64,000 nt of DNA from Stappia stellulata (lineage in GTDB: Bacteria > Pseudomonadota > Alphaproteobacteria > Rhizobiales > Stappiaceae), in the NCBI RefSeq assembly GCF_020176715.1, contig NZ_JAIVMF010000003.1, forward strand, positions 124,001 to 188,000. The letters are read 5' to 3'. The notes under the pieces are model-generated. The model was not told the DNA's origin, made no database searches, and worked only from the letters and a program-made list of their open reading frames with translations. Numbering within the stretch: the first letter of the stretch is position 1; each line of letters opens with the position of its first letter. This document shows positions 1,705-30,253 of the stretch, piece by piece. Position numbers and translations under genes: made by a program.

Positions 1705-2829
1705 ATGGGCGACCGCCGCGAGCTGGAAGAGATCAAGCAGGGTCTCAAGGACAAGATCGAGGATCTGTGCCGTCGCCTTCTGCCGGATGGCCGGCGCATG
1801 GGCCGGCTGTGGGTTTCAAACAATCCGGTGACGGGCGATCATCGCAAGACGCCGGAGCTCAAGGTCGGACTGGATCGCGACAAGGGCGCCTGGAAGGACT
1901 GGCGGACCGGCGACAAGGGCGATGTGATCGGGCTGATCGAATACCTGCACCAGACCGATTTCAAGGGTGCGCTGCAATGGGCGCGCGACTTCCTCGGTCT
2001 GGAAAAGATGACGGTAACGGAGCGCCGCTCCTTCGCCATCGCCGCGCAGGCGCGCGCCAAAGAGGATGACGAGAAAGCACGGCAAGCGGCCGAATGGCAG
2101 CGCCGACAGGCGGAAAAGCTGTTCGAACGCGGGTTTATGGACGGGGCGGGTTCCACCGTCGAGCAACACGCACGGGAGTATCTGGCGCATCGGGGAATTG
2201 ATCTCGGCGCGATCCGCCACCGCGACCGCACGTCGTTGCGCTTTGCTCCGGAGGTCGAGTACTGGACGCTGGCGCAATGGTCGGTCGACGAGGCGACCGG
2301 GCGGCGCGTCAAGACGCGGCCGGGTCCGGCGTTTCCCGCGATCATCGCCGCGATGCGCACGCCACTCGGTCAGTTCCGGGCCTGCCACGTCACCTTTCTG
2401 GACCCGCTCCATCCGCTCAAGGCGGACCTCGGCCCAAAGCATTCCCCGCGGCTGATGAAAGCCGCGACGAAAGGAGCTGCCGTGTGGCTCTCGCACGGCC
2501 CGGAAGGCGTGCCGCCCTGGGAAGCGACCCGTCCGGCACCGCTAATCCTCTCCGAAGGCATCGAGACCGGCTTGCAGATCGCGATGGATGTCCCGGAAGC
2601 GCGGGTCGCCGCAGCCGGGTCGATCAGCGGGATCGGCAATGTGCCGGTGAATTTCGACTTTGTGTCCTGCGTGATCGTTGCCGGCGAAAACGATTGGGAC
2701 AAACCGCAGGCGCAACAGCAGCTCGACCGCACGCTGGAACAACTCGGCGACAGCGGCAAGCCGCTGGATCTGATGAAGCCGCATGCGGGATCGGACTTCA
2801 ACGACCTGGGAAAAGGAGACGTGGAATGA
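1705..2829 (+). CDS. Phage DNA primase with TOPRIM-like domain
   Basis: A 374-residue protein. The N-terminal 100 residues (GAWKDWRTGDKGDVIGLIEYL) match the pattern of the CHC2 zinc-binding domain of DnaG-type primases, but without the zinc-ligating cysteines. A charged helical linker follows. The C-terminal part carries a TOPRIM-like strand and acidic residue (LILSEGIETGL, about residues 280-290) and a second acidic cluster (GENDWD, about 330-335) that would bind metal. It should synthesise primers for phage replication together with the helicase gene downstream. Start ATG at 1705; the stop overlaps the next gene (ATGA). Confidence 0.85.
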   Translation: MGDRRELEEIKQGLKDKIEDLCRRLLPDGRRMGRLWVSNNPVTGDHRKTPELKVGLDRDKGAWKDWRTGDKGDVIGLIEYLHQTDFKGALQWARDFLGLEKMTVTERRSFAIAAQARAKEDDEKARQAAEWQRRQAEKLFERGFMDGAGSTVEQHAREYLAHRGIDLGAIRHRDRTSLRFAPEVEYWTLAQWSVDEATGRRVKTRPGPAFPAIIAAMRTPLGQFRACHVTFLDPLHPLKADLGPKHSPRLMKAATKGAAVWLSHGPEGVPPWEATRPAPLILSEGIETGLQIAMDVPEARVAAAGSISGIGNVPVNFDFVSCVIVAGENDWDKPQAQQQLDRTLEQLGDSGKPLDLMKPHAGSDFNDLGKGDVE

Positions 2830-3383
2830 CCAGAAAGAGGAAGGCCAATGCAAAGCCGAAAGGTCAGGAGAAAAGCGGTGAAAAGGTCTGGACTGGTGCT
2901 GTATCCGGTGAAGCGTTCGTTGAGGCGTCGCCTAAGGCAACTTTGAACGCGTCGCCCCTGCCCGCTGGCCCGCCGCTGTTCGGTGGGGACCATGCGCTGT
3001 GGATTGCCTTTCGGGCGACGCGCTCGGCCGTGCGCGGGTTGATTGGCGAGGATGCGCCCCAGCCCGACCCGGAAAAACTCGCCGACCAGGCCGTGTGCAT
3101 GGCCGATTTCCTGCGCAGCGCACCGGACGCGAGCGACGAGGCGGTGGTGACGCAGCTTTCCATGCGCGGCAAGGCGCGCGGCGGCGACGACACGCTGCGG
3201 TTCAAGGTGCGGGTGTTCCGCGACGTGCTCGCCCATGCCGAACGGCACCTGCGCGAGGCGGAACCGCCCGCCCCGACCGACGCGGAGCTGGCGGCCAAGG
3301 CTGCAAAGCCCGATCCGCGCGATCTCTCGCTGAAACTGGTCAAGGCGCCGCTGGCGCTGACGGAGACCGCCAAGGGCCGCTAA
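2826..3383 (+). CDS. Phage protein of unknown function between primase and helicase
   Basis: A 185-residue protein with a Lys-rich N-terminus, a Pro/Ala-rich linker and a helical middle (residues about 60-140). I do not recognise the family. The ATGA overlap with the primase stop fixes the start and argues that the two products are made together. It is followed by an intrinsic terminator-like hairpin, so it is probably the last gene of the first early transcript. The position between two replication enzymes suggests, but does not show, a replication or loader role. Confidence 0.65.
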   Translation: MTRKRKANAKPKGQEKSGEKVWTGAVSGEAFVEASPKATLNASPLPAGPPLFGGDHALWIAFRATRSAVRGLIGEDAPQPDPEKLADQAVCMADFLRSAPDASDEAVVTQLSMRGKARGGDDTLRFKVRVFRDVLAHAERHLREAEPPAPTDAELAAKAAKPDPRDLSLKLVKAPLALTETAKGR

Positions 3384-3404
3384 GGCCGGTTGCGGCTGGA
3401 GGGT

Positions 3405-3438
3405 GCCGCCGGCGGTTTCGACTGCCGGCGGCTTTTTC
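3405..3438 (+). terminator. Rho-independent terminator inside the early region
   Basis: A perfect 9-bp stem (GCCGCCGGC / GCCGGCGGC) with a 10-base loop, followed at once by five T residues and CT. It lies 21 bases after the stop of the preceding gene and about 20 bases before the helicase start, so it would end or attenuate transcription between the primase group and the helicase. Confidence 0.8.
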
Positions 3439-3457
3439 TCAAGGATTACGGGCGACA

Positions 3458-5305
3458 ATGGCAAAGCGGCGCACACAGGTCGGCAGACAGGCAACCCGAG
3501 CCCATTTTATCGAGGCAACGCGTCGGCTTTCGGAGCGCGAGGAAATCCTCGATCCCGATCCGAACCTGCCGCGCGAGGGAATCGGTCCGGGAAAGTGGGA
3601 CGGCGCGCCGTTCGACCGGATGCCACCGAATTGCCCGGTCGAAGTCCTCGGCCACAATGGCGTCACCACCTATTGCCGGTCGGCGAGCGGTCAGCTCCAC
3701 GCGGTCGAGCGATGGGACATGCACGTTCTGACCAGCTTGTTCGCGCCGAAAATCAACTATGCCTATTGGGCCTGGCCGGCTTTCAAGAAAACCGGCACAA
3801 ACGAGGACGGTCAACCGATCTACAAGGTCGACCGCGTGGAGCGCGACAAGGCCATGATCTGTCTTGTCTCGGAGGGCAAGCGGCGCGGCCTGTTCGATCC
3901 GGAAAAGCGCGTGCGCGGCCGGGGCGGCTGGATGGCCGATGCCGGCAACTTCATCTGGAATTCCGGTGAATGGCTCTGGATGGCCGACACGACCGGCAAG
4001 CTGGAGACCGCGCGGCCGTCCGAGCATGACGGGTATTTGTACACGCGCGCGCCCGACATCGAACGGCCCTGGGAAACATCGATCGATCGCGAGCAAAGCC
4101 CCGCGCAATCGATCCTGGAGGATCTTCGAACATGGAACTGGGAGCGGCCCTATCTCGACCCGGTTTTATTCCTCGGCTGGATCGCCTGCGCGTTCATGGG
4201 CGGAGCGCTCGACTGGCGGCCTATCGTCTTCACCAGCGGCGGGGCCGGCGTCGGCAAGTCGACCTTGCACAAACTGGTTCAAAGCATTTTGGGCGACGCG
4301 CTGATCGCGCTGGTCGACACCACGGCGGCCGGCATCTATCAGCACGTCAAGCAGGACAGCCTGCCGGTGACGGTCGACGAGCTGGAGGCCAAGCGCAACA
4401 GCTCCAAGTCGACCTCGATTATCGAGCTGGCGCGGCTCGCGTCGTCGGGCGGCAAGATGGCGCGCGGCGGCGCGAACCACGAAGGAACGACGTTTCAGGC
4501 GCAATCGTGCTTCATGTTCTCGGCGATCATCCCTCCCCCGATGGGCGTGCAGGATCGCACGCGCATGGCGACGCTGAACCTGCGCAAGCTGGACAAGGGC
4601 CACGGCCGCGAGCCGGTGGTGCGCGACACCGACGGCCGCATGCTTCTGCGCCAGATCATGGACGGCTGGCAGGAGTTCCGCGCGCGTACCCTGCCAGACT
4701 GGAAACAGACGTTGCACATGGCGGGATTCGATGCCCGCGCAATGGACACCTACGGCACGCTGCTGGCTGCGGCCGAACTGCTGGTCGGCCCGGAAGCGCT
4801 AGAGGATATCGGGCTGGAAGTTTCCGACCAGGCTGCGCTGGCGGAGGTCATCCGCGCGGCCACGGAAGCAGAACGGGCCGAACAGGTCGAGAAGTGGCAA
4901 GAGTGCATCGCGCACCTGCTGGCTTCGCCGGTAGATGCTCATCGGGGCGGCGACCGTTTGACGGTCGGTGGAATCATCGCTGATTTCGAACGCAGCGCGC
5001 TCGATCTGCAGTACGCCCGTGAAAGGCTGGCGCTGGCGGGCCTCGGCCTACGAAAGGCGGGCGATCCGGCCATCGGGCCTCACATTGCAATTCCAAGAAG
5101 TCACCCGGCGCTCACCAAAATCTTTCAGGACACGGACTTTTACGAAGGCGGCTGGTGGACAGCGCTCAAGCAGGCACCATCGCACATCGTCCTGCGCGGT
5201 CTGGAGCAACGGTTCCACACGGTGAAAATCAATCGGGACGCGAAATTCTGCCTGTTGATCGACCTCGGCGCCTATGACGCGGCGATGCCGAGGGCCGAGG
5301 GGTGA
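3458..5305 (+). CDS. Phage replicative helicase/ATPase (P-loop)
   Basis: A 615-residue protein. A Walker A motif GGAGVGKST lies at about residues 261-269 and a Walker B-like VDE at about 306-308, followed by an Arg-rich sensor region (GVQDRTRMATLNL). The first 250 residues resemble the non-catalytic N-terminus of phage primase-helicase proteins. The combination with the separate primase gene supports replication-fork unwinding. The ATG at 3458 was chosen because it follows the terminator hairpin; the longer open frame from 2999 runs antiphase through the previous gene. The exact helicase superfamily (SF3-like or other AAA+) cannot be fixed by eye. Confidence 0.8.
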   Translation: MAKRRTQVGRQATRAHFIEATRRLSEREEILDPDPNLPREGIGPGKWDGAPFDRMPPNCPVEVLGHNGVTTYCRSASGQLHAVERWDMHVLTSLFAPKINYAYWAWPAFKKTGTNEDGQPIYKVDRVERDKAMICLVSEGKRRGLFDPEKRVRGRGGWMADAGNFIWNSGEWLWMADTTGKLETARPSEHDGYLYTRAPDIERPWETSIDREQSPAQSILEDLRTWNWERPYLDPVLFLGWIACAFMGGALDWRPIVFTSGGAGVGKSTLHKLVQSILGDALIALVDTTAAGIYQHVKQDSLPVTVDELEAKRNSSKSTSIIELARLASSGGKMARGGANHEGTTFQAQSCFMFSAIIPPPMGVQDRTRMATLNLRKLDKGHGREPVVRDTDGRMLLRQIMDGWQEFRARTLPDWKQTLHMAGFDARAMDTYGTLLAAAELLVGPEALEDIGLEVSDQAALAEVIRAATEAERAEQVEKWQECIAHLLASPVDAHRGGDRLTVGGIIADFERSALDLQYARERLALAGLGLRKAGDPAIGPHIAIPRSHPALTKIFQDTDFYEGGWWTALKQAPSHIVLRGLEQRFHTVKINRDAKFCLLIDLGAYDAAMPRAEG

Positions 5306-5309
5306 AGCG

Positions 5310-5609
5310 ATGATCTGTTGGGAAAGTCGTTTCTTGGGCATCTATGCCGGCCGAGACGATCTGCGGCGGTTTGCGGCAAGCTTGAAACTCATGATCGGCC
5401 GGGTCGACGACGCACCGACAATGTGCATCCGCTGGCGATTGATTTTCGGTCTGTCCTGGGACTGGCGACCGAAATGCGTGTGGGTCGAGTCCGGTCTAAA
5501 TCAAATCTTGCGAACTGACATGTACGACAGCGCGTCCTGGACAGGGCGAACGCGCGATCTGGTATCTTGGCAATGGCCTATGAGATGGGAATTCTACAGA
5601 AAAAACTAG
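5310..5609 (+). CDS. Small phage protein of unknown function, Trp-rich
   Basis: A 99-residue basic protein unusually rich in Trp and Arg (WESRF, CIRWRLIF, LSWDWRP, WQWPMRWEF). It starts four bases after the helicase stop behind a GAGGGG ribosome site. The 3' end overlaps the 3' end of the opposing XRE gene by four bases, so the two transcripts collide here. I do not recognise it; the gene call itself is moderately uncertain. Confidence 0.5.
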   Translation: MICWESRFLGIYAGRDDLRRFAASLKLMIGRVDDAPTMCIRWRLIFGLSWDWRPKCVWVESGLNQILRTDMYDSASWTGRTRDLVSWQWPMRWEFYRKN

Positions 5610-5863
5610 GCCGATTGACGTTTTGCGGCGAGTCCGGGCTTGCTTTCCATCGGCCAATCGTCCGGCCTGTAACCGTCCAGATAAGCGCGCAGCAGTCGAA
5701 CAGTTGTCGGCCGCGCCTGACGATGCATCTCAACGTCCTCGCCGCTTTCCAATCGGCGCTGGTGTAGATCCGAATGGCCCAGCATGCGTGCCATGTCAGC
5801 GACGGAAAGCCCGAGCTGAACCCGGGCCTTCTGAATTTCGGTCGGTGACATGGTGTCGGTCAT
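5606..5863 (-). CDS. Small XRE-family helix-turn-helix regulator
   Basis: An 85-residue protein with a Cro/CI-type helix-turn-helix at about residues 8-45 (ARVQLGLSVADMARMLG, then an ESGEDVEM recognition-helix surround). It is the last gene of the minus-strand cassette, two bases downstream of the second methyltransferase, and converges on the early operon. No peptidase or dimerisation domain is present, so it is Cro-like rather than a LexA-type repressor. It may autoregulate the cassette through the inverted repeat overlapping the cassette promoter; that link is inference. Confidence 0.8.
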   Translation of the reverse strand: MTDTMSPTEIQKARVQLGLSVADMARMLGHSDLHQRRLESGEDVEMHRQARPTTVRLLRAYLDGYRPDDWPMESKPGLAAKRQSA

Positions 5864-5865
5864 GA

Positions 5866-6912
5866 CTAGAAAAGGTCCATCTGCGCGAGCGTTTCAGTTT
5901 CCCTTTTTTCGCACCCCGGTATCACATATTGCAAGCCGCATCGAGTTAGTTCCGTCGGTGACGGCTTGGCCACCTTAGCGGGCGCATCCACGACAATGCG
6001 GATTGCGGCAACGCTGGTCCCGCTTTTGAGAAATGATCCGTCGGGTAAGGTTTCCGCATATCCGTCCACGCATTCCAGCCAATCGCGGAAATCGTCCCAT
6101 CGGCGGCCTGTCCGGCTCAGCGTGCTTCCGGACATGATCGCCACAAGCCGGCCGCCGGGCTTGAGAAACCCAAAGGCGCGGCGCACATGCTCCAGGTCTT
6201 GACCGTTTTCAAATGGGGGGTTCATGACGATGCGGTCAAACACCTGCGCGGGGATCGCGTCCATAAAATCGCTGCCGGCCAGCGCTGACCCGTGCCCTTT
6301 CAGTTCCAGAACCTCGCGCAAGCGCGGCGAGACCTCGTAAGCCGTGATGCGGGCTGCCGGCGTCGCCGCCAGTACCGCGTCCAGCAGGGCGCCGGAACCG
6401 GCGGACGGCTCCAAAACCGTATCGCCGGGCTTGATGTCAGCAGTCGCCACGATGTCAGCCGCTAAGGACGCAGGCGTCGGAAAATAACCAGGGATACCGG
6501 CAAAGCGGGCATCGTCGAGGGCGCGCCGAAGCCGCTCGGCCTTGCGCCGCTCTTCTTGGTTGGCGGCTAGAGCCTTCCAGAGTACATGCGCGGCCTCGCT
6601 GTCACATGCAGGCTCACCGGTCTCAAAGCCGGCGTCGTAGTAGCCTCCAGACCGGTTGATTTTGGCCCGCGTCAGATCATGCAGGGCTTTTTTTGTGCGA
6701 ATGTTCGCGAGACAGGCCGGCACAGTGCCAGCTTCCGAAGCGTCCGCCAGCCAACGCAGGGCATTTTGGGTCCGCTCGAGGTGCAGCCCATCCAACGCGG
6801 CCGATGCCGCCTGCCGCTGCCGCCGGGGCGTGTTTGTATTCCGGTCTGCAAACTTGTTGTCAATCTGGCTTTGAAGGTTGTCTGCCAGTTCGCGCATGCG
6901 ATCAGGTGTCAT
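5866..6912 (-). CDS. Second phage DNA adenine methyltransferase with N-terminal extension
   Basis: A 348-residue protein. Residues 1-140 are a helical, charged extension. Then come FPTP (144-147), the SAM-binding LEPSAGSGAL (167-176), an acidic strand end (AYEVSP, about 191-196) and the catalytic NPPF (231-234), the order of gamma/type I-like N6-adenine methylases such as those on plasmids and phages. It differs clearly from the short methylase in the plus-strand early operon. Its neighbours are a DUF932 gene upstream and an XRE gene directly downstream; this trio resembles anti-restriction cargo of mobile elements. No endonuclease is present. Confidence 0.85.
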   Translation of the reverse strand: MTPDRMRELADNLQSQIDNKFADRNTNTPRRQRQAASAALDGLHLERTQNALRWLADASEAGTVPACLANIRTKKALHDLTRAKINRSGGYYDAGFETGEPACDSEAAHVLWKALAANQEERRKAERLRRALDDARFAGIPGYFPTPASLAADIVATADIKPGDTVLEPSAGSGALLDAVLAATPAARITAYEVSPRLREVLELKGHGSALAGSDFMDAIPAQVFDRIVMNPPFENGQDLEHVRRAFGFLKPGGRLVAIMSGSTLSRTGRRWDDFRDWLECVDGYAETLPDGSFLKSGTSVAAIRIVVDAPAKVAKPSPTELTRCGLQYVIPGCEKRETETLAQMDLF

Positions 6913-6955
6913 CGGCTATCTCCTCTCGGCGCGCCTCAATGGCGCTCAGTCGGTC

Positions 6956-7005
6956 TGATGCCGGGGATGCGGCCGCCACCTGGGCGGCCGCACTGCCGGG
7001 CATCA
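6956..7005 (-). repeat. Long imperfect palindrome between DUF932 and methyltransferase genes
   Basis: The arms TGATGCC...GCGGCCGCC and GGCGGCCGC...GGGCATCA pair over about 20 bases with a perfect inner GCGGCCGCC core. It overlaps the DUF932 stop codon. There is no T-run on the minus strand, so an RNA stability or processing hairpin is more likely than a full terminator. Confidence 0.5.
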
Positions 7006-7869
7006 GGCCGCCAGGCTGTCCGCGCCTTTCATCTCCGCCATGCGCTGCGAGAGGATCCAAAGGGCCTTGTTCAGCTTCACGTCCTGGTCGATCCCGTTGA
7101 CCGCGCGGGTCGAGACGCGCCGGCGCCGGCCGTTGGCATCGCGGGTGATACCGCGCAGCCCGCCGCGAATGACGTTTTCCTGCGCGACGTTGAACGTGGT
7201 CCAAAGGTCGGCCGCACGGTCGTCGCGGCGCCGGGGGCTAAGGAGTTGTTCAGGCGTGATCGGCGTGTCAATGTTGCCGTCAGCGTCGCCGAACCGCAGC
7301 ACATGCGCCGCTTCCGCGAAGGCCATGCGCTCGTCCCGCGCCAGCTCCACGCCCGCCCAGCTCGCCGGCGCCGCCAGCGCCTTTTGCGCCTCTTCCATGA
7401 CGCGATAGGTGCCTTCGATCACCTTGCCCTGCACGTCGCCAGAATGCCGGACTTTCACGCTGTCGATGGTGCCCGTTTGCGCCACGAGCGAATTCAGGCA
7501 GCGAATGCGGAACAGGCCGGCCATCAGATCGTAAGCGCTGGAACCGTCATTCGCGTTCTTCAACAGGATTTCGCAGACCGTATCGCCAACGCGCAGGCTG
7601 CTATCCTCGTCGATGCGACGCAGCCGCAGCATGTGCTTGGTGAAGTGGACCTTGCTTGCGTCGCGGCTGCGAGACTGTTTTACGCCGACCGGCATGAACC
7701 CTTCGGCCATCAGGCCGCGCAGGATCTCGATTGTCGGGATCGGCTGAAAACGGTCGGAGCGGCTTTCGTGGGCGGATGTGGCGAAGACCGACGGCGCCAG
7801 GCGGCGCAACTCATCCTCACCAAGAACCTTGGCGCCATCGAAACGAGCGGTGTTTGCGTAAATCGACAT
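7003..7869 (-). CDS. DUF932-family phage/plasmid protein
   Basis: A 288-residue protein that fits the DUF932 (phage/plasmid-like) family: an N-terminal FQPIPTIEILRGLMAEGF segment, a central HMLRLRR strand, then CLNSLVAQT and a long helical C-terminus. Members occur on plasmids and phages, often near methylases and anti-restriction genes; their biochemical role is not established. The ATG at 7869 is preferred over an upstream start at 7938 because a GGGGA ribosome site lies about eight bases before it, and the longer form would begin upstream of the -10 box. It is the first gene of the minus cassette. Confidence 0.8.
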   Translation of the reverse strand: MSIYANTARFDGAKVLGEDELRRLAPSVFATSAHESRSDRFQPIPTIEILRGLMAEGFMPVGVKQSRSRDASKVHFTKHMLRLRRIDEDSSLRVGDTVCEILLKNANDGSSAYDLMAGLFRIRCLNSLVAQTGTIDSVKVRHSGDVQGKVIEGTYRVMEEAQKALAAPASWAGVELARDERMAFAEAAHVLRFGDADGNIDTPITPEQLLSPRRRDDRAADLWTTFNVAQENVIRGGLRGITRDANGRRRRVSTRAVNGIDQDVKLNKALWILSQRMAEMKGADSLAA

Positions 7870-7918
7870 GGTCAATATCCCCTTGCTGGTGCGCCTCACT
7901 GGCGCTGCTGACGATAAA

Positions 7919-7948
7919 TTTATAACCAATGGTATCAAATGTAGTCAA
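7919..7948 (-). promoter_or_regulatory. Sigma70-like promoter of the minus-strand cassette
   Basis: On the minus strand, TTGACT (7948-7943) is followed after 18 bases by TATAAA (7924-7919), a near-consensus -35/-10 pair in an otherwise GC-rich region. Transcription would start near 7912, about 40 bases before the DUF932 ATG. It would drive DUF932, methyltransferase and XRE genes. Confidence 0.75.
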
Positions 7949-7968
7949 GAAAAATATTGCCATTGGTT
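7924..7968. promoter_or_regulatory. Inverted-repeat operator bracketing the cassette promoter
   Basis: AACCAATGG (7924-7932) and CCATTGGTT (7960-7968) are perfect 9-bp inverted copies 27 bases apart. One arm abuts the -10 box and the other lies just upstream of the -35 box, so a protein bridging both would block the promoter. The downstream XRE protein is the obvious candidate ligand. Confidence 0.6.
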
Positions 7969-8027
7969 TTATTTTCATGCCGTCGCGCTCGTTCCCCCGC
8001 CCGTTTTCCGCCAAAAATCGACCGCAG

Positions 8028-8036
8028 CACTTAACC
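8028..8036 (+). promoter_or_regulatory. Variant CACTTAA motif
   Basis: CACTTAACC, a near match to the CACTTAAG motif found in three other phage intergenic regions, located upstream of the GGTTAG array. The function is unknown, and chance occurrence of this weaker copy is quite possible. Confidence 0.25.
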
Positions 8037-8154
8037 TTTTCCCCCGCCCTGATGGCAGAGAAACGGAGCCCGCGCCGGACCCGAACCGCCCGCCTCTGCC
8101 GCGCTTTCGCGCGCCTGCGGCCGATGCGTGAAGCTATCGCCGGTCCGGCGCGGG

Positions 8155-8164
8155 CACTTAAGGC
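8155..8164 (+). promoter_or_regulatory. Recurring intergenic motif CACTTAAGGC (copy 1)
   Basis: The same CACTTAAG core appears in the gaps before the major capsid gene and the tail-fibre gene, always on the plus strand. This copy lies upstream of the late operon, about 320 bases before the small terminase start. It could be a phage regulatory site. Confidence 0.35.
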
Positions 8165-8211
8165 AGGGCGAGGCGTGCGACGGTCGATTTCTTCCGCCGA
8201 CGGGTGCGGGT

Positions 8212-8456
8212 GGTTAGCGTCGGTTAGACGCGGTTAGATGCGACATAACCCGATTAATTCAATGAAATCATGAGGATGGATTGATGGTTAGGCGGTTAGC
8301 GCGGTTAGTAAGGTTCATACGCGCGCGCGTGTGCATACACGCGATCTCATCTAACCTCATAACCCCTAACCTGTAGAATTATATTCCTGATTTCATTGGC
8401 ATATCACGGTTAGGTTGCGGTTAAGACCGCGCGTCGCGCCGGCCGTCGAGCTAACC
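8212..8456. repeat. GGTTAG/CTAACC hexamer array: candidate phage origin or operator
   Basis: Perfect GGTTAG copies start at 8212, 8222, 8232 (exactly 10 bp apart), 8286, 8294, 8303 and 8408, with near copies at 8312 (GGTTCA), 8413 (GGTTGC) and 8419 (GGTTAA). Inverted copies CTAACC lie at 8351, 8366 and 8451, with ATAACC at 8245 and 8359. The two halves flank a palindrome, CGCGTGT-gcat-ACACGCG (8326-8343), and CAATGAAATCA (8260-8270) is repeated inverted at 8388-8398 around nearly the same centre. The stretch codes for nothing convincing and separates the minus cassette from the late operon. Iteron-like spacing suggests binding of an initiator or a multimeric regulator. Confidence 0.7.
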
Positions 8457-8483
8457 GGAATAAACAAATGGGGATCTAGACCG

Positions 8484-9152
8484 ATGCAGGACGACGGCGC
8501 CGACCAGGACCCGAAAAAGACGCTGGAAGGGGCACACCGGCCGGGCGAAATCGAGCCGGACGAAGAGCGCGCGGCCAAGATCGGCGACACGGCCGCGACC
8601 GCACAGGCCGCGCTCGATGACCTGGCCGCGATGATCGAGCCGGACGAAGCGCCCGACCAGCCTTCATTGCTTGATGATGAGGCGTGCCTTTTCGGTGGTC
8701 CGGTGGAGCATGTCGCGGAAACCTTCCGGGCCGCCAAAGGGCGCGGGAGGCCGAAAGGCTCGAAGAACAAGGCGAACCAGGCGTTCCGGGACTACCTGTT
8801 GAAGCTGGGTTACCGCCATCCGGGGCTGAACCTCGCCGACCTGGCGAACGCCGATCCGCACCAGCTCGCGGGCGAGCTGTCGCAGCCGTACAGGCCGACG
8901 AAAGGGCCGCATGCGGGCGAGCTGGTCGAAAGCGCGTGCACGCCGGCCGATGCGCTGGCGCTGATCATGAAGGCCAACGAAGCGTTGATGCCCTATTTCG
9001 AGAGCAAGCGGCCGACCGAGACGATCCAGACCGAACAGCGCTTCGGCGTGATGGTCATTCACCAGTCGGAAGGCTCCGGCGAGCGTGCGCCCGATGGCAT
9101 CATGAGCCTGACCGGCGAAGTCAGGAAAAAGCAAGACAATTCAGATACTTAG
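8484..9152 (+). CDS. Putative small terminase subunit
   Basis: A 222-residue protein directly ahead of the large terminase gene. The N-terminal 90 residues are acidic and probably disordered. Residues about 93-125 (GRGRPKGSKNKANQAFRDYL) are a basic, helix-forming DNA-binding segment as seen in small terminases and related phage packaging proteins, followed by a helical oligomerisation-like region. The ATG at 8484 with an upstream GGGGA fits; the longer frame from 8415 would translate into the repeat array. It would recognise phage DNA and load the packaging motor. The assignment rests on position plus the basic motif, not on a strong family signature. Confidence 0.65.
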   Translation: MQDDGADQDPKKTLEGAHRPGEIEPDEERAAKIGDTAATAQAALDDLAAMIEPDEAPDQPSLLDDEACLFGGPVEHVAETFRAAKGRGRPKGSKNKANQAFRDYLLKLGYRHPGLNLADLANADPHQLAGELSQPYRPTKGPHAGELVESACTPADALALIMKANEALMPYFESKRPTETIQTEQRFGVMVIHQSEGSGERAPDGIMSLTGEVRKKQDNSDT

Positions 9153-9535: not shown

Positions 9536-11116
9536 TTGGGGATCGACGTTCAGCACTATCAACCGCCGGGTCCGGTCGGCGCGCGGTTTCTGAATGCGCG
9601 GGGCCCAATTGACCTGATCATGGGGCCTGCGGGCTCGGGAAAGACCGTATGCTGCGTGATGAAGGGACCGCTTATGGCCGCGCAATATGCGCCGGTCTGC
9701 CGTGACGGCGTGGTCCGGGTCAAGGTGGCCTGTATCCGCGACACCTACCGCGACTTCTCCCGCACTGCGCTTTCTTCCTGGTATGAAGCTTTCCCGATCT
9801 CGCATCCCTGGACAGTCCACCATGAGGGCGGGCAGGACCGCCCCGTCAAACATCGCCTAAAATGGCGCGCCAAACGGCCGGGATATGGCGAAGTCATCGT
9901 CGACTACACGATGGAAACCGGCGCGATCGGCGATCACAACGTCGAGCAATACATCAAGGGCTACGAAATCACCTACGGGTGGATCAACGAGGCCGACATG
10001 ATCGACGAGCGAGTGCCCGGCCTGCTGTTCCAGCGGACGGGCCGTTACCCGAAGGTGACGGATATCGCGCCTTCGGAGCTGGAAAGAGTGTCGCAGGACG
10101 GCCGCCTAGTTATGCAAAAAATGGGATTAACTACCCAACCCGGCGAAATTGTGCTGCCGCGCATGGTGATGTGTGACCTTAATCCGCCCGATGTCGACAA
10201 TTGGGTCTATCGGTTCTGCGAGAAAGAAAAAAAACGCGGCTTTAATATGTTTAGACAGCCGTCCGGCTTGTCGCCAAACGCCGAAAACCGGGTCGGAAAG
10301 CCGCGTTCGTCCTACGAATTAGAGGAGGCCACACAGGCAGAGCACATCGTGCGGCGGATGGTGCACGGCGAGTATGGCTATGCGCTCGACGGGAAGCCGG
10401 TCTATCCGGAATTTGCCTTGCAGCGCCACAAGGCCGATGCGCCGATTACGCCAGTCAAGGGTATCCCGCTGGGGATCGGCATCGACGCCGGCGGGTCGCC
10501 GGCGGCCGTGATCGTGCAGTTCATGCCGAACGGGCAACTGCGGATTCTCTGCGAGATCTGCGCACAACCCGGCACCGGTGCGTCGCGGTTCTCCGAAATG
10601 ATCCTGGAGGTCTTGCTATCGCGCTTTCCGGGCTTTCCGATCAGCGAAGCCTATGGCGATCCGTCGGCGTTCTGGGGTGCGGACAGGCAGGCCGGCGAGT
10701 TGTCATTCATGGAAACGGTCGGGCGGGCGCTCAACCTCAACATTCAGCCGGCACCCTCGAACGAACCGGCCCTTCGCCAGGAGGCGGTACGCTGGTATCT
10801 CGGCCGGCCCATCGACGGCAACACCGAACGCATGATCGTCGATCCCGGTTGCGACATGATCATCGGCGGTTTCGCCGCGCACTACAAGCTGACCAAACAG
10901 GCAAGCGCCGGGCAGACCGATGTTCTGGCGGTGGCGAAAAACAACTACTCGCACCCGCATGACGCCCTGCAATACATCTGCCTGGGCCACCGCGGCCGAT
11001 ACGGCGTGATCGACGATGCCGCGAAGCTCGGGCGCGGCGACAACGTTGTCGGCCTGCGTGCGCGCCGCAAATCCGGGCAGTCCCGCGACCGCTTGAGCGA
11101 GGTCAAGCTGTGGTGA
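9536..11116 (+). CDS. terL: Terminase large subunit (packaging ATPase/nuclease)
   Basis: A 526-residue packaging motor. The Walker A motif GPAGSGKT lies at residues 30-37; a Walker B-like acidic strand (GWINEADM) at about 148-155 supplies the catalytic Glu. The C-terminal RNase H-like nuclease has its first Asp in GIGIDAGGS (about 314-322), then AYGDPSA and a final HPHDAL (about 480). It cuts concatemers and pumps DNA into the procapsid. The start is a TTG eight bases after AAGGG; an in-frame stop 15 bases upstream and the next Met lying immediately before the P-loop make this TTG the only sensible start. The 3' end overlaps the next gene. Confidence 0.95.
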   Translation: MGIDVQHYQPPGPVGARFLNARGPIDLIMGPAGSGKTVCCVMKGPLMAAQYAPVCRDGVVRVKVACIRDTYRDFSRTALSSWYEAFPISHPWTVHHEGGQDRPVKHRLKWRAKRPGYGEVIVDYTMETGAIGDHNVEQYIKGYEITYGWINEADMIDERVPGLLFQRTGRYPKVTDIAPSELERVSQDGRLVMQKMGLTTQPGEIVLPRMVMCDLNPPDVDNWVYRFCEKEKKRGFNMFRQPSGLSPNAENRVGKPRSSYELEEATQAEHIVRRMVHGEYGYALDGKPVYPEFALQRHKADAPITPVKGIPLGIGIDAGGSPAAVIVQFMPNGQLRILCEICAQPGTGASRFSEMILEVLLSRFPGFPISEAYGDPSAFWGADRQAGELSFMETVGRALNLNIQPAPSNEPALRQEAVRWYLGRPIDGNTERMIVDPGCDMIIGGFAAHYKLTKQASAGQTDVLAVAKNNYSHPHDALQYICLGHRGRYGVIDDAAKLGRGDNVVGLRARRKSGQSRDRLSEVKLW

Positions 11117-27790: not shown

Positions 27791-30253
27791 ATGGCACAAC
27801 CCTTCCCGCTTCCGCGTGAAATCCGTTCGACGGGCACGCTCGCATTCGATGGCGCGAGCATCACCTTCGGGCCGTTCGACTTCAAGATCTTCGATACGGT
27901 GGATGTCGTCGTCGAGCTGAAACACGCGGGCGATGCGGAATGGTCAGCCACCTCGGCCGTCACGGTCACCAAGAGCTCCGCCGCTGCACTCGACACCTTC
28001 TCCGTCACCTTCGACGCCATCCACCCGGTGACGTCGACGTTCCGCGTGCGCGGCTCGCGTTTACACGAACGGTCCGTCGGCTTGGCCAAGGGCATCGGCC
28101 TCGATCTCGTGGAGCTGGAAAAGGAGGTTTCCAAGCATGGGATCGTCCTGCAGGAAACGCGCGCCGACGCCAGCTTGCGCGACGCGGATCGTGCGCGAAC
28201 CCTGCGCGCGCCGGACGGGGAAAGTCTCCCGGCGATTCCGCCCGTTGCGGGTCGCGCAACGCGCGTCCTCGGCTTCGACGCTGACGGAAAGCCGATTGCA
28301 ATGGTGCCAGGCACGGCCGATGCGGAGGCCGTCGCGAATACCTATCCGCGCCGGTCTGCGGACAACAAAGTGTGGGAAGCGCAGACGGCGGCGGAGGTAC
28401 GGGCCGACCTCGCAGTGTCCTTCAACGTCGCCACGTTGGCGGCGCTTGCAGCCGTGGCGAAGGCCGATCTTGCCGATGGCGTGTCCGCAGTCGCGGTCGA
28501 CGATGCGACGGGCGGGATCTTCGTCTGGGACGCCGCAAGCACGGCAACCGCCGACGGCGATACGGTTCTCGCTACCGACGAAGGCGGAACCGGCCGATGG
28601 CTCCGCAAGACGCGAAACCTTGCCGACGGTACGGTCAACACAGCACAGATCGCGGGCGCCTCTGTCACGCTCCCGAAGCTGGGAGACGACGTATTCATTG
28701 CGCCCCCGCGACCGGTCCTCCCCTATTGGGACGCGACCGGTGATACGTGGCATCAGGAGCTGCTTGACAATAACGACGGGCACCGTGGCTTTGCGTCTAT
28801 CGCGTATGACCGGGTTAGCCAAACTGTCTACGTGGCGTATCGGGATGCGACCACACACGGCATTGTCGATAATGGAGTTGATGCCGACGGCACGATCCGG
28901 CTCTTGACTATCTCCAAGTCAGGGGCCGGATACGCATCTCCTGCCAATGTCGAGGTTCTGGCAAACCCGGACGGATTTGATCTTCGTGATCCGTATTTGT
29001 GCATGGCGCCAAGTGGGCGTCTTTTGCTGGTCTACACGCAAACGCCTGACGACAGCGGCGGAGACGGCCCGACAACCTTCAGATCGACTTACCGTGAACC
29101 GGGCGAAAGCGCCTGGTCCTCGCCGCTGATCATCGACACGATCAACTACGACTACGCACGGCTCTACGGTGGCTTGCGGGTGCATCCCTCTCCTGCCTCG
29201 GTGGGTGATTGGGAAATCTCTGTGACCGCTTACTATCAGACCGGCGCGGGCACCTACATGGTCGGGCAGTACACGACCTTTGATGCAGGTGAAAACTGGA
29301 GCAGCGAGGCCGATCTGTCCCGCGCGCCGATCAGCGCTTCGGGTGTCGATGGCACGACGGAAACGTCTATGGACGCCGTGAACCCACTGCTCTGGTTCGC
29401 GGCGGGCCGCAACGACGACGACATACAGTTCTACATCTCTGAGGACGGTCAAGGATCTTGGTCGGCGGCTGAGATCGTTCCTGTATCGGTTTCCGGGGCT
29501 AATATCGCTCCGCTCCTGCGCGTGGTGACCGACAGCAAGGGTGATCCATGGGTCCTTCTTTTTCTCTCCGACAAGAGTGCCGATGCGCTCAAGGTTACAT
29601 TCGCGCGGCCTCGTGACCTGCTTGCCTTGGGGGCGAGCGCATTCCCCCGGCCGATCAGTCTTCAGGGGTCGTTAATCAACGCCTATCCCGACGTTGTCGA
29701 CATCGGCGACGGCCACATGGTTTTCGTGACAAACGACGAGGTGAGCGGAGACGACAGTCGTAGCGCGCTTCATATGGGTCACTTCAACTACCGCCGCATC
29801 GTCGAAGCGCCTCCAATGTGGCGTATCGGATTGTCATCGGCGCAAACGGGCATCGCAAGCTCGGCTTTGACCAAGATTGCCTTTGCTTCCTTTGGTGCCG
29901 GATATCTGCACGGCATCGAATACGTGTCGGCGGACAACGGCATCCTCATTTGCCGGTCAGGTTACTACGATCTCAGTGTGGCAATCGGCATCACCGGCGG
30001 AATTGTGGACGGCGAGTTGCTGATCACCAAGATCCGCCGCCAGCCGGCCGGCGGCTCCATCGGCGACATCGCAATCCACTACGGCAGTTCATCCGGCACG
30101 ACTTCACACACGGGGCAGGCAAACGTGTCGATTTACCTGGCAGCTGGGGACGTCGTGACGGCTTGGGTTCAAGTAGCGGGCGCAGGCGACAAGACGGTTA
30201 CGAGTTCCGTTGCCACCTACTTCACCGGGAAGTTCATCGGCCTCGCACCGTAG
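27791..30253 (+). CDS. Tail fibre: T7-type base, beta-propeller body, C1q-like tip
   Basis: An 820-residue receptor-binding protein. Residues 1-110 follow the N-terminal tail-attachment domain of T7 gp17-like fibres (PFPLPREIRSTGTLAFDGASITF... VRGSRLHERSVGLAKGIGLDLVELEKEV), ending in a coiled coil. Residues about 310-680 look like a sialidase-type beta-propeller with Asp-box-like turns (TFDAGENW at about 495 and SEDGQGSW at about 550). Residues about 686-820 resemble a C1q/TNF-like jelly roll (SGYYDLSVAIGI, then YLAAGDVVTAWV and a final TYFTGKF). The catalytic arginines of true sialidases are not evident, so it is more likely a glycan-binding than a cleaving body. Confidence 0.85.
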   Translation: MAQPFPLPREIRSTGTLAFDGASITFGPFDFKIFDTVDVVVELKHAGDAEWSATSAVTVTKSSAAALDTFSVTFDAIHPVTSTFRVRGSRLHERSVGLAKGIGLDLVELEKEVSKHGIVLQETRADASLRDADRARTLRAPDGESLPAIPPVAGRATRVLGFDADGKPIAMVPGTADAEAVANTYPRRSADNKVWEAQTAAEVRADLAVSFNVATLAALAAVAKADLADGVSAVAVDDATGGIFVWDAASTATADGDTVLATDEGGTGRWLRKTRNLADGTVNTAQIAGASVTLPKLGDDVFIAPPRPVLPYWDATGDTWHQELLDNNDGHRGFASIAYDRVSQTVYVAYRDATTHGIVDNGVDADGTIRLLTISKSGAGYASPANVEVLANPDGFDLRDPYLCMAPSGRLLLVYTQTPDDSGGDGPTTFRSTYREPGESAWSSPLIIDTINYDYARLYGGLRVHPSPASVGDWEISVTAYYQTGAGTYMVGQYTTFDAGENWSSEADLSRAPISASGVDGTTETSMDAVNPLLWFAAGRNDDDIQFYISEDGQGSWSAAEIVPVSVSGANIAPLLRVVTDSKGDPWVLLFLSDKSADALKVTFARPRDLLALGASAFPRPISLQGSLINAYPDVVDIGDGHMVFVTNDEVSGDDSRSALHMGHFNYRRIVEAPPMWRIGLSSAQTGIASSALTKIAFASFGAGYLHGIEYVSADNGILICRSGYYDLSVAIGITGGIVDGELLITKIRRQPAGGSIGDIAIHYGSSSGTTSHTGQANVSIYLAAGDVVTAWVQVAGAGDKTVTSSVATYFTGKFIGLAP

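Follow-up and report, generated by a model that had tools for sequence, protein, structure and literature searches.

A prophage of Stappia stellulata carries a dense cluster of GGTTAG hexamers directly ahead of its putative small-terminase gene, which raises the question of what these repeats do for the phage. A first-pass annotation had offered two answers, a phage origin or a master operator. We analyzed the cluster within its whole 64-kb stretch of DNA (the window) and find it probable that the array is a replication origin, of the kind used by SaPI and PICI elements, belonging to a tailed phage that is now a prophage, with the GGTTAG hexamers serving as iterons bound by the phage's own helicase.

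Seven exact GGTTAG copies (8212, 8222, 8232, 8286, 8294, 8303 and 8408) and three exact CTAACC copies (8351, 8366 and 8451) were located, so that 10 of the 11 copies in the window fall within 8212–8456, the remaining one lying at 28813. These counts, positions and spacings agree with the first-pass annotation, which had also listed five near copies; we find three with at most one mismatch (8245, 8359 and 8419). Read from the left, three forward GGTTAG spaced by 10 bp (8212–8237, plus strand) are followed by an inverted near copy, ATAACC (8245–8250, minus strand), with a TAACC core conserved among relatives, and by three further forward GGTTAG spaced by 8 and 9 bp (8286–8308, plus strand), the second and third of which are the least conserved sites. 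A 27-bp alternating purine–pyrimidine tract (8317–8343) comes next and includes the palindrome CGCGTGTGCATACACGCG (8326–8343). Beyond it lie three inverted sites, CTAACC, ATAACC and CTAACC (8351–8371, minus strand), an AT-rich block (8372–8398), a forward GGTTAG and GGTTAA spaced by 11 bp (8408–8424, plus strand) and a final inverted CTAACC (8451–8456, minus strand) 28 bp upstream of the putative terS start. An 11-bp inverted pair is formed by CAATGAAATCA at 8260–8270 (plus strand) and its inverse at 8388–8398; from the mapped positions, its center lies ~5 bp from that of the palindrome. The AT-rich block, a candidate unwinding element, holds the right arm of this pair, the well-conserved block TATATTCCTGATTT and the most AT-rich 25 bp of 8200–8485 (19 of 25 A+T; 0.11% of all 25-mers in the window are at least this AT-rich). 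Its flanking by opposed iteron sets (8351–8371 and 8408–8424) is a feature of SaPI/PICI-type origins.

The array is not a chance product. In 2,000 dinucleotide shuffles of 7939–8483, no hexamer of any kind reached ten copies (largest count 8), and GGTTAG itself averaged 0.21 copies with a maximum of 3. When 256-bp windows were ranked in 64-bp steps across the 64 kb, the top rank went to GGTTAG with nine copies, the best hexamer elsewhere reaching seven. The noncoding location was likewise upheld: the open frame of the putative small terminase can be read from 8415, but its similarity to relatives mostly starts at residues 16–29 or later, so the array stretch is intergenic and an ATG at 8484 fits as the start.

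The left end of the prophage (10–1115) encodes a stand-alone Trans_reg_C DNA-binding protein (10–384) followed by a DNA methyltransferase. Next come a replication module with a Toprim primase (1705–2829, plus strand), an AAA+ replication helicase (~3434–5305, plus strand) and a variable minus-strand cassette (5606–7938) comprising a regulator (5606–5863), a DNA methyltransferase (5866–6912) and a DUF932 protein (7003–7938). After the array follow the putative small terminase (8484–9152, plus strand), named by position only and with no PHROG match for the frame from 8415 and no Pfam match, the large terminase (9536–11116, plus strand), a head–tail connector (portal), a major head protein and tail proteins. 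The presence of terminase, portal, major head and tail genes sets the element apart from a PICI, a satellite without a full structural module. When compared with the phage collection, the large terminase has as its top-listed relative the protein of BcepC6B, a podovirus (31% identity). In the nearest relative (L006, from genome G004), an AT-rich insert with open frames of no known function lies between terS and terL (~3200–4150).

Related prophages were surveyed for the array and its neighbors. Within the genus, a close TerL (≥82%) occurs in 4 of 14 genomes, and the same four have the array; two further genomes have a distant TerL (33–40%) and no array. Across the family, the array pattern is found in 6 of 87 genomes (G000, G004, G005, G013, G069 and G073), two of which (G069 and G073) represent another genus, a seventh (G077) having a partial array; it also occurs in the viral contigs L013 and L195. 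An alignment of six diverged members has 56 invariant columns among the 60 of the sites and 46 among the 175 others, a comparison that excludes the 8451 copy and in which some end-gap columns slightly lower the second figure. Conservation is likewise high in the alternating CG tract and in the AT-rich block; the palindrome, which the first-pass annotation had placed at the heart of the array, is present in the window but is not conserved as such. The array is accompanied by the helicase, the putative TerS and TerL. In the relatives L123 and L136, it sits immediately 3′ of the helicase gene, unlike in the window, where 2.9 kb and three genes intervene; the best reading is an origin that inserted genes have separated from its helicase gene.

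One relative, L016, carries homologs of TerL, portal, helicase and DUF932 and, upstream of DUF932, nine copies of GTAGCA accompanied by a CG tract, a stretch rich in A+T and, as in the window, a pair spaced by 11 bp. Its DUF932 protein is 75% identical to that of the window, whereas the helicase is only 32% identical over the part compared; judged from these sequences, the hexamer has changed while DUF932 hardly has. The motif CAATGA(A/T)ATCA is found, in this or the inverse orientation, next to both arrays despite their differing hexamers (8260–8270 and 8388–8398 in the window; ~4540–4615 in L016) and may bind a host factor. Further phages that encode DUF932 relatives also have two-strand arrays, of GGAAGT in L017 (8210–8420), of GTGACG in L020 (3641–3830) and of GCGTTG in L030 (2037–2340); the first of these lies at a primase's 3′ end.

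The proposed initiator belongs to the PHROG 21086/35358 class. Because the upstream part of its raw frame, which opens at 2999, is interrupted by stops in relatives, this start is over-extended and the helicase begins at or shortly past 3434. It has no Pfam match, but its predicted structure (pLDDT 69.2) matches the SCCmec helicase Cch best, with SaPI initiators and MCM proteins scoring close. The C-terminal domain (4871–5305, plus strand), predicted to form three helices with a β hairpin at its start and without a clear fold match, is our candidate for the iteron reader.

If this helicase class acts through such arrays, its phage relatives might carry arrays of their own. Hexamer arrays were scored by a measure defined ad hoc for this analysis, as was the strict-array rule used below. 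The phage collection holds 23 relatives of the helicase, including some duplicate records; 5 of the 11 examined have an array scoring at least 12, compared with 5 of 104 control viral loci chosen by a reversed hexamer pattern (10 of which reach 9). The Bdellovibrio phage phi1422 has 12 copies of GGTAAC starting 11 bp past its primase gene, and the Synechococcus phage MinM1 has 12 copies of TGTGAG starting at the 3′ end of its helicase gene. The others are MT835534 (GGTTCT, ten copies, 0.3 kb past the match), Acjo_20 (GTTACA, 11 copies, just upstream of the gene) and MT835930 (GTAACG, ten copies, 2.6 kb past the match). Two more relatives score 8.8–8.9, S-H1 with seven CGTTAG at the 3′ end and MQ-4 with seven GGTAAC 1.7 kb past, and the other four have a lower score or no array. 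The phi1422 and MinM1 arrays thus share with the window the helicase family and the two-strand organization and differ in the hexamer; as shown, neither phage record annotates an origin there.

The closest parallel is the E. coli PICI EcCICFT073, whose rep-ori is reported to support plasmid maintenance (PMC6092414). In our reading of its sequence (L487, 8997–9284), GGTAGA/TCTACC iterons on both strands surround AT-rich DNA immediately 3′ of the primase–helicase gene. The layout is that of the window, two-strand hexamer iterons around AT-rich DNA paired with a primase–helicase, although the iteron is GGTAGA rather than GGTTAG, the origin directly follows rep and the element is a satellite rather than a full phage. 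Similarly, SaPI origins are described as consisting of short iterons located downstream of the gene for the helicase, whose C-terminal domain recognizes them (PMC7581432). The Rep proteins of SaPIBov1 and SaPI5 and the SCCmec proteins Cch and Cch2 are initiator helicases whose fold resembles that predicted for the window's helicase, but the window belongs to a full phage of an alphaproteobacterium. Since its array lies 2.9 kb from the helicase gene, we describe it as working like a SaPI/PICI replicon rather than as a member. The arrays described here suggest that the rep-ori layout is used by tailed phages too.

Under this model, the opposed GGTTAG sets would act as iterons for the AAA+ helicase (~3434–5305), which would probably contact them through its C-terminal domain and form oligomers on them. 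The AT-rich DNA at 8372–8398 would then melt, perhaps aided by the alternating CG tract (8317–8343), and the helicase would load itself, with the Toprim primase (1705–2829) and host polymerase acting next.

Because the array ends just upstream of the putative terS, the main rival is a packaging site (pac or cos) in which the hexamers are small-terminase binding sites marking the start of packaging. The pac site of phage P1, with another hexamer, is such a hexamer-rich site near packaging genes at which packaging starts. The 28-bp distance to terS, a gene named by position only, would suit this reading, as would the presence of terS and terL in most window-like relatives and the GGTTAG arrays near the portal gene in a P2-like group. 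However, in L136 (G470), admittedly a single case, the terminase comes from another PHROG family, yet the array lies next to a homologous helicase. The array of L098, a member of the DUF927 group, is embedded in the replication genes, between a primase–helicase and a resolvase plus a second helicase, and the tested replicon of EcCICFT073 has the same kind of layout. We regard a packaging site as unlikely.

An operator appears more doubtful still. Here the array would be a cooperative master switch for a phage regulator, whether CtrA-like, the small regulator or DUF932-related, and its position between the divergent DUF932 and terS genes and the Trans_reg_C protein encoded at 10–384 are compatible with such a role. 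Yet DUF932, the methyltransferase and the small regulator have no match in the fetched DNA of the array-bearing G005, G069, G073 and G471, and the 18 kb fetched from G013, another carrier of the array, contain no match to the CtrA-like gene. Of 26 viral loci with DUF932, a GGTTAG cluster is present in only one, the window-like L013, and the window contains no TTAA-N7-TTAA, the consensus of CtrA-type sites. Of the two early proposals, then, the iteron or origin half is sustained by conservation, layout, partner helicase and parallel arrays, and the operator half is not; none of the binders suggested at that stage (CtrA-like, XRE, which corresponds to the small regulator, or primase) is favored over the helicase, and the suggested GC-skew check gave no clear switch at the array. 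A dual-use site, an origin at which initiator binding also represses or times terS transcription, would account for the last iteron lying 28 bp upstream of the putative terS start; we give this combination very little weight. A SaPI/PICI-like origin remains our preferred reading.

The distribution of GGTTAG arrays beyond the family was assessed by scanning for three spaced GGTTAG and retaining strict arrays (at least six sites in 300 bp, at least two per strand). Among the matches listed, strict arrays were found at 31 of 119 loci in viral contigs and 7 of 119 loci in genome contigs, against 3 of 120 for a reversed-pattern control; the genome arrays include those of Acinetobacter, Achromobacter, a cyanobacterium, an actinobacterium and Lachnospiraceae. 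For 16 of the 38 strict arrays, a replication primase–helicase-related gene of the VapE, DUF927/Cch or AAA_25 type or of the window's own class has its 3′ end at most 130 bp away or slightly overlapping the array; as the query proteins came from the same loci, this tally describes rather than tests the association. One array (L095) is likewise placed by a protein of no known function, two fall inside an AAA_25 frame, in its 3′ portion, two lie 0.9 and 2.6 kb downstream, nine are near a P2-like portal or terminase, two (L091 and L231) share the site spacing of members of that group, a further two come from the group of the window, their helicase lying beyond the fetched DNA, and four were placed in no group. 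The P2-like phages L122, L141, L146, L229 and their kin, with hosts including Acinetobacter, carry their arrays near the portal gene; that of L122 lies between integrase and portal, and the phrog_1139 primase of G464 and G466 is far away. A reversed-hexamer control locus, L410 (6167–6431), has an 11-site two-strand GATTGG array that is perhaps another origin of the same kind.

The VapE class, distinct from the helicase class of the window, was used to examine how iteron and helicase vary together. We fetched 33 VapE-type relatives of L132, 32 of which had at least 150 bp past the stop codon. Thirteen of the 32 have at least four GGTTAG from 100 bp before to 500 bp after the stop; of the other 19, 12 have GGTATGG or GGTGTGG, one has GATATGG/CATATGG and six have neither. 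In seven of eight inspected GGTATGG/GGTGTGG loci, a CG tract is flanked by two opposed sets, and L456 shows the left set only; CGCGCG occurs in 28 of the 32 stretches, a raw count without base-composition control. None of five named VapE-type phages has an array reaching a score of 12: PS3 has eight GGTCAC directly 3′ (9.7), Haddon has eight GGACAG (9.4) and VarioGold, Mica and Aval score at most 6.0. Among ten VapE-type matches in 300 genomes of one order, L516, which shares its C-terminal part with L459, and L517 have GGTATGG, and the other eight have neither iteron.

Twenty-five of the 33 helicases could be typed, 12 as GGTTAG and 13 as GGTATGG, GGTGTGG or GATATGG; left untyped were L467 (cut), L472 (frame broken in reading) and six without such iterons (L471, L481, L482, L483, L485 and L486). 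Among 487 alignment columns, none with more than four gaps, exactly one separates the types: all 12 helicases with GGTTAG have Tyr there, and all 13 with GGTATGG-type iterons have Phe, His or Ser. This residue, first spotted by eye and afterwards recovered by the column scan, lies in a C-terminal R-x-W-Y stretch and corresponds to residue 749 of the L454 protein; no other column misplaces fewer than three helicases. The iteron type switches about six times on the VapE tree (five to seven over bootstrap trees, with at least four forced by well-supported branches) and is somewhat clustered, only 22–28 of 500 label shuffles needing as few changes. In 5,000 label permutations, which ignore relatedness, no column with four or fewer residue types separated the labels perfectly. 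Five further distinct helicases with the R-x-W-Y stretch all agree (L490, L506, L090, L313 and L517); among these, L506 comes from the same phage as L472, L090 and L313 had originally been picked out by their GGTTAG, and L517 carries GGTATGG only three times. The distant GGTTAG helicases L140 and L093 do not have the stretch and are uninformative on the residue. As evidence that initiators bind iterons through the C-terminal domain, this covariation is indirect and comes from the VapE class, not from the class of the window.

We put at about even the chance that these observations reflect a large and mostly unannotated class of phage replicators, in which opposed iteron sets surround AT-rich DNA and an alternating CG tract is often present, whereas the hexamer (GGTTAG, GGTATGG, GTAGCA, GGTTCT, GTAACG, GGTAAC, TGTGAG and others) changes and is read by the helicase C-terminal domain. 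In VapE helicases, the choice would rest on one residue, Tyr for GGTTAG and Phe, His or Ser for GGTATGG-type iterons, with roughly six switches on the tree. If so, initiator and origin would make up an evolvable lock-and-key that stops co-resident phages from firing each other's origins.

For many temperate phages, we know of no established origin. The array described here provides a precise candidate origin together with a candidate initiator, and a simple search rule, a two-strand hexamer array by a replication helicase, led to arrays in named phages, phi1422 and MinM1 among them. The one-residue link between VapE helicases and their iterons makes the choice of origin by its initiator directly testable with natural protein pairs.
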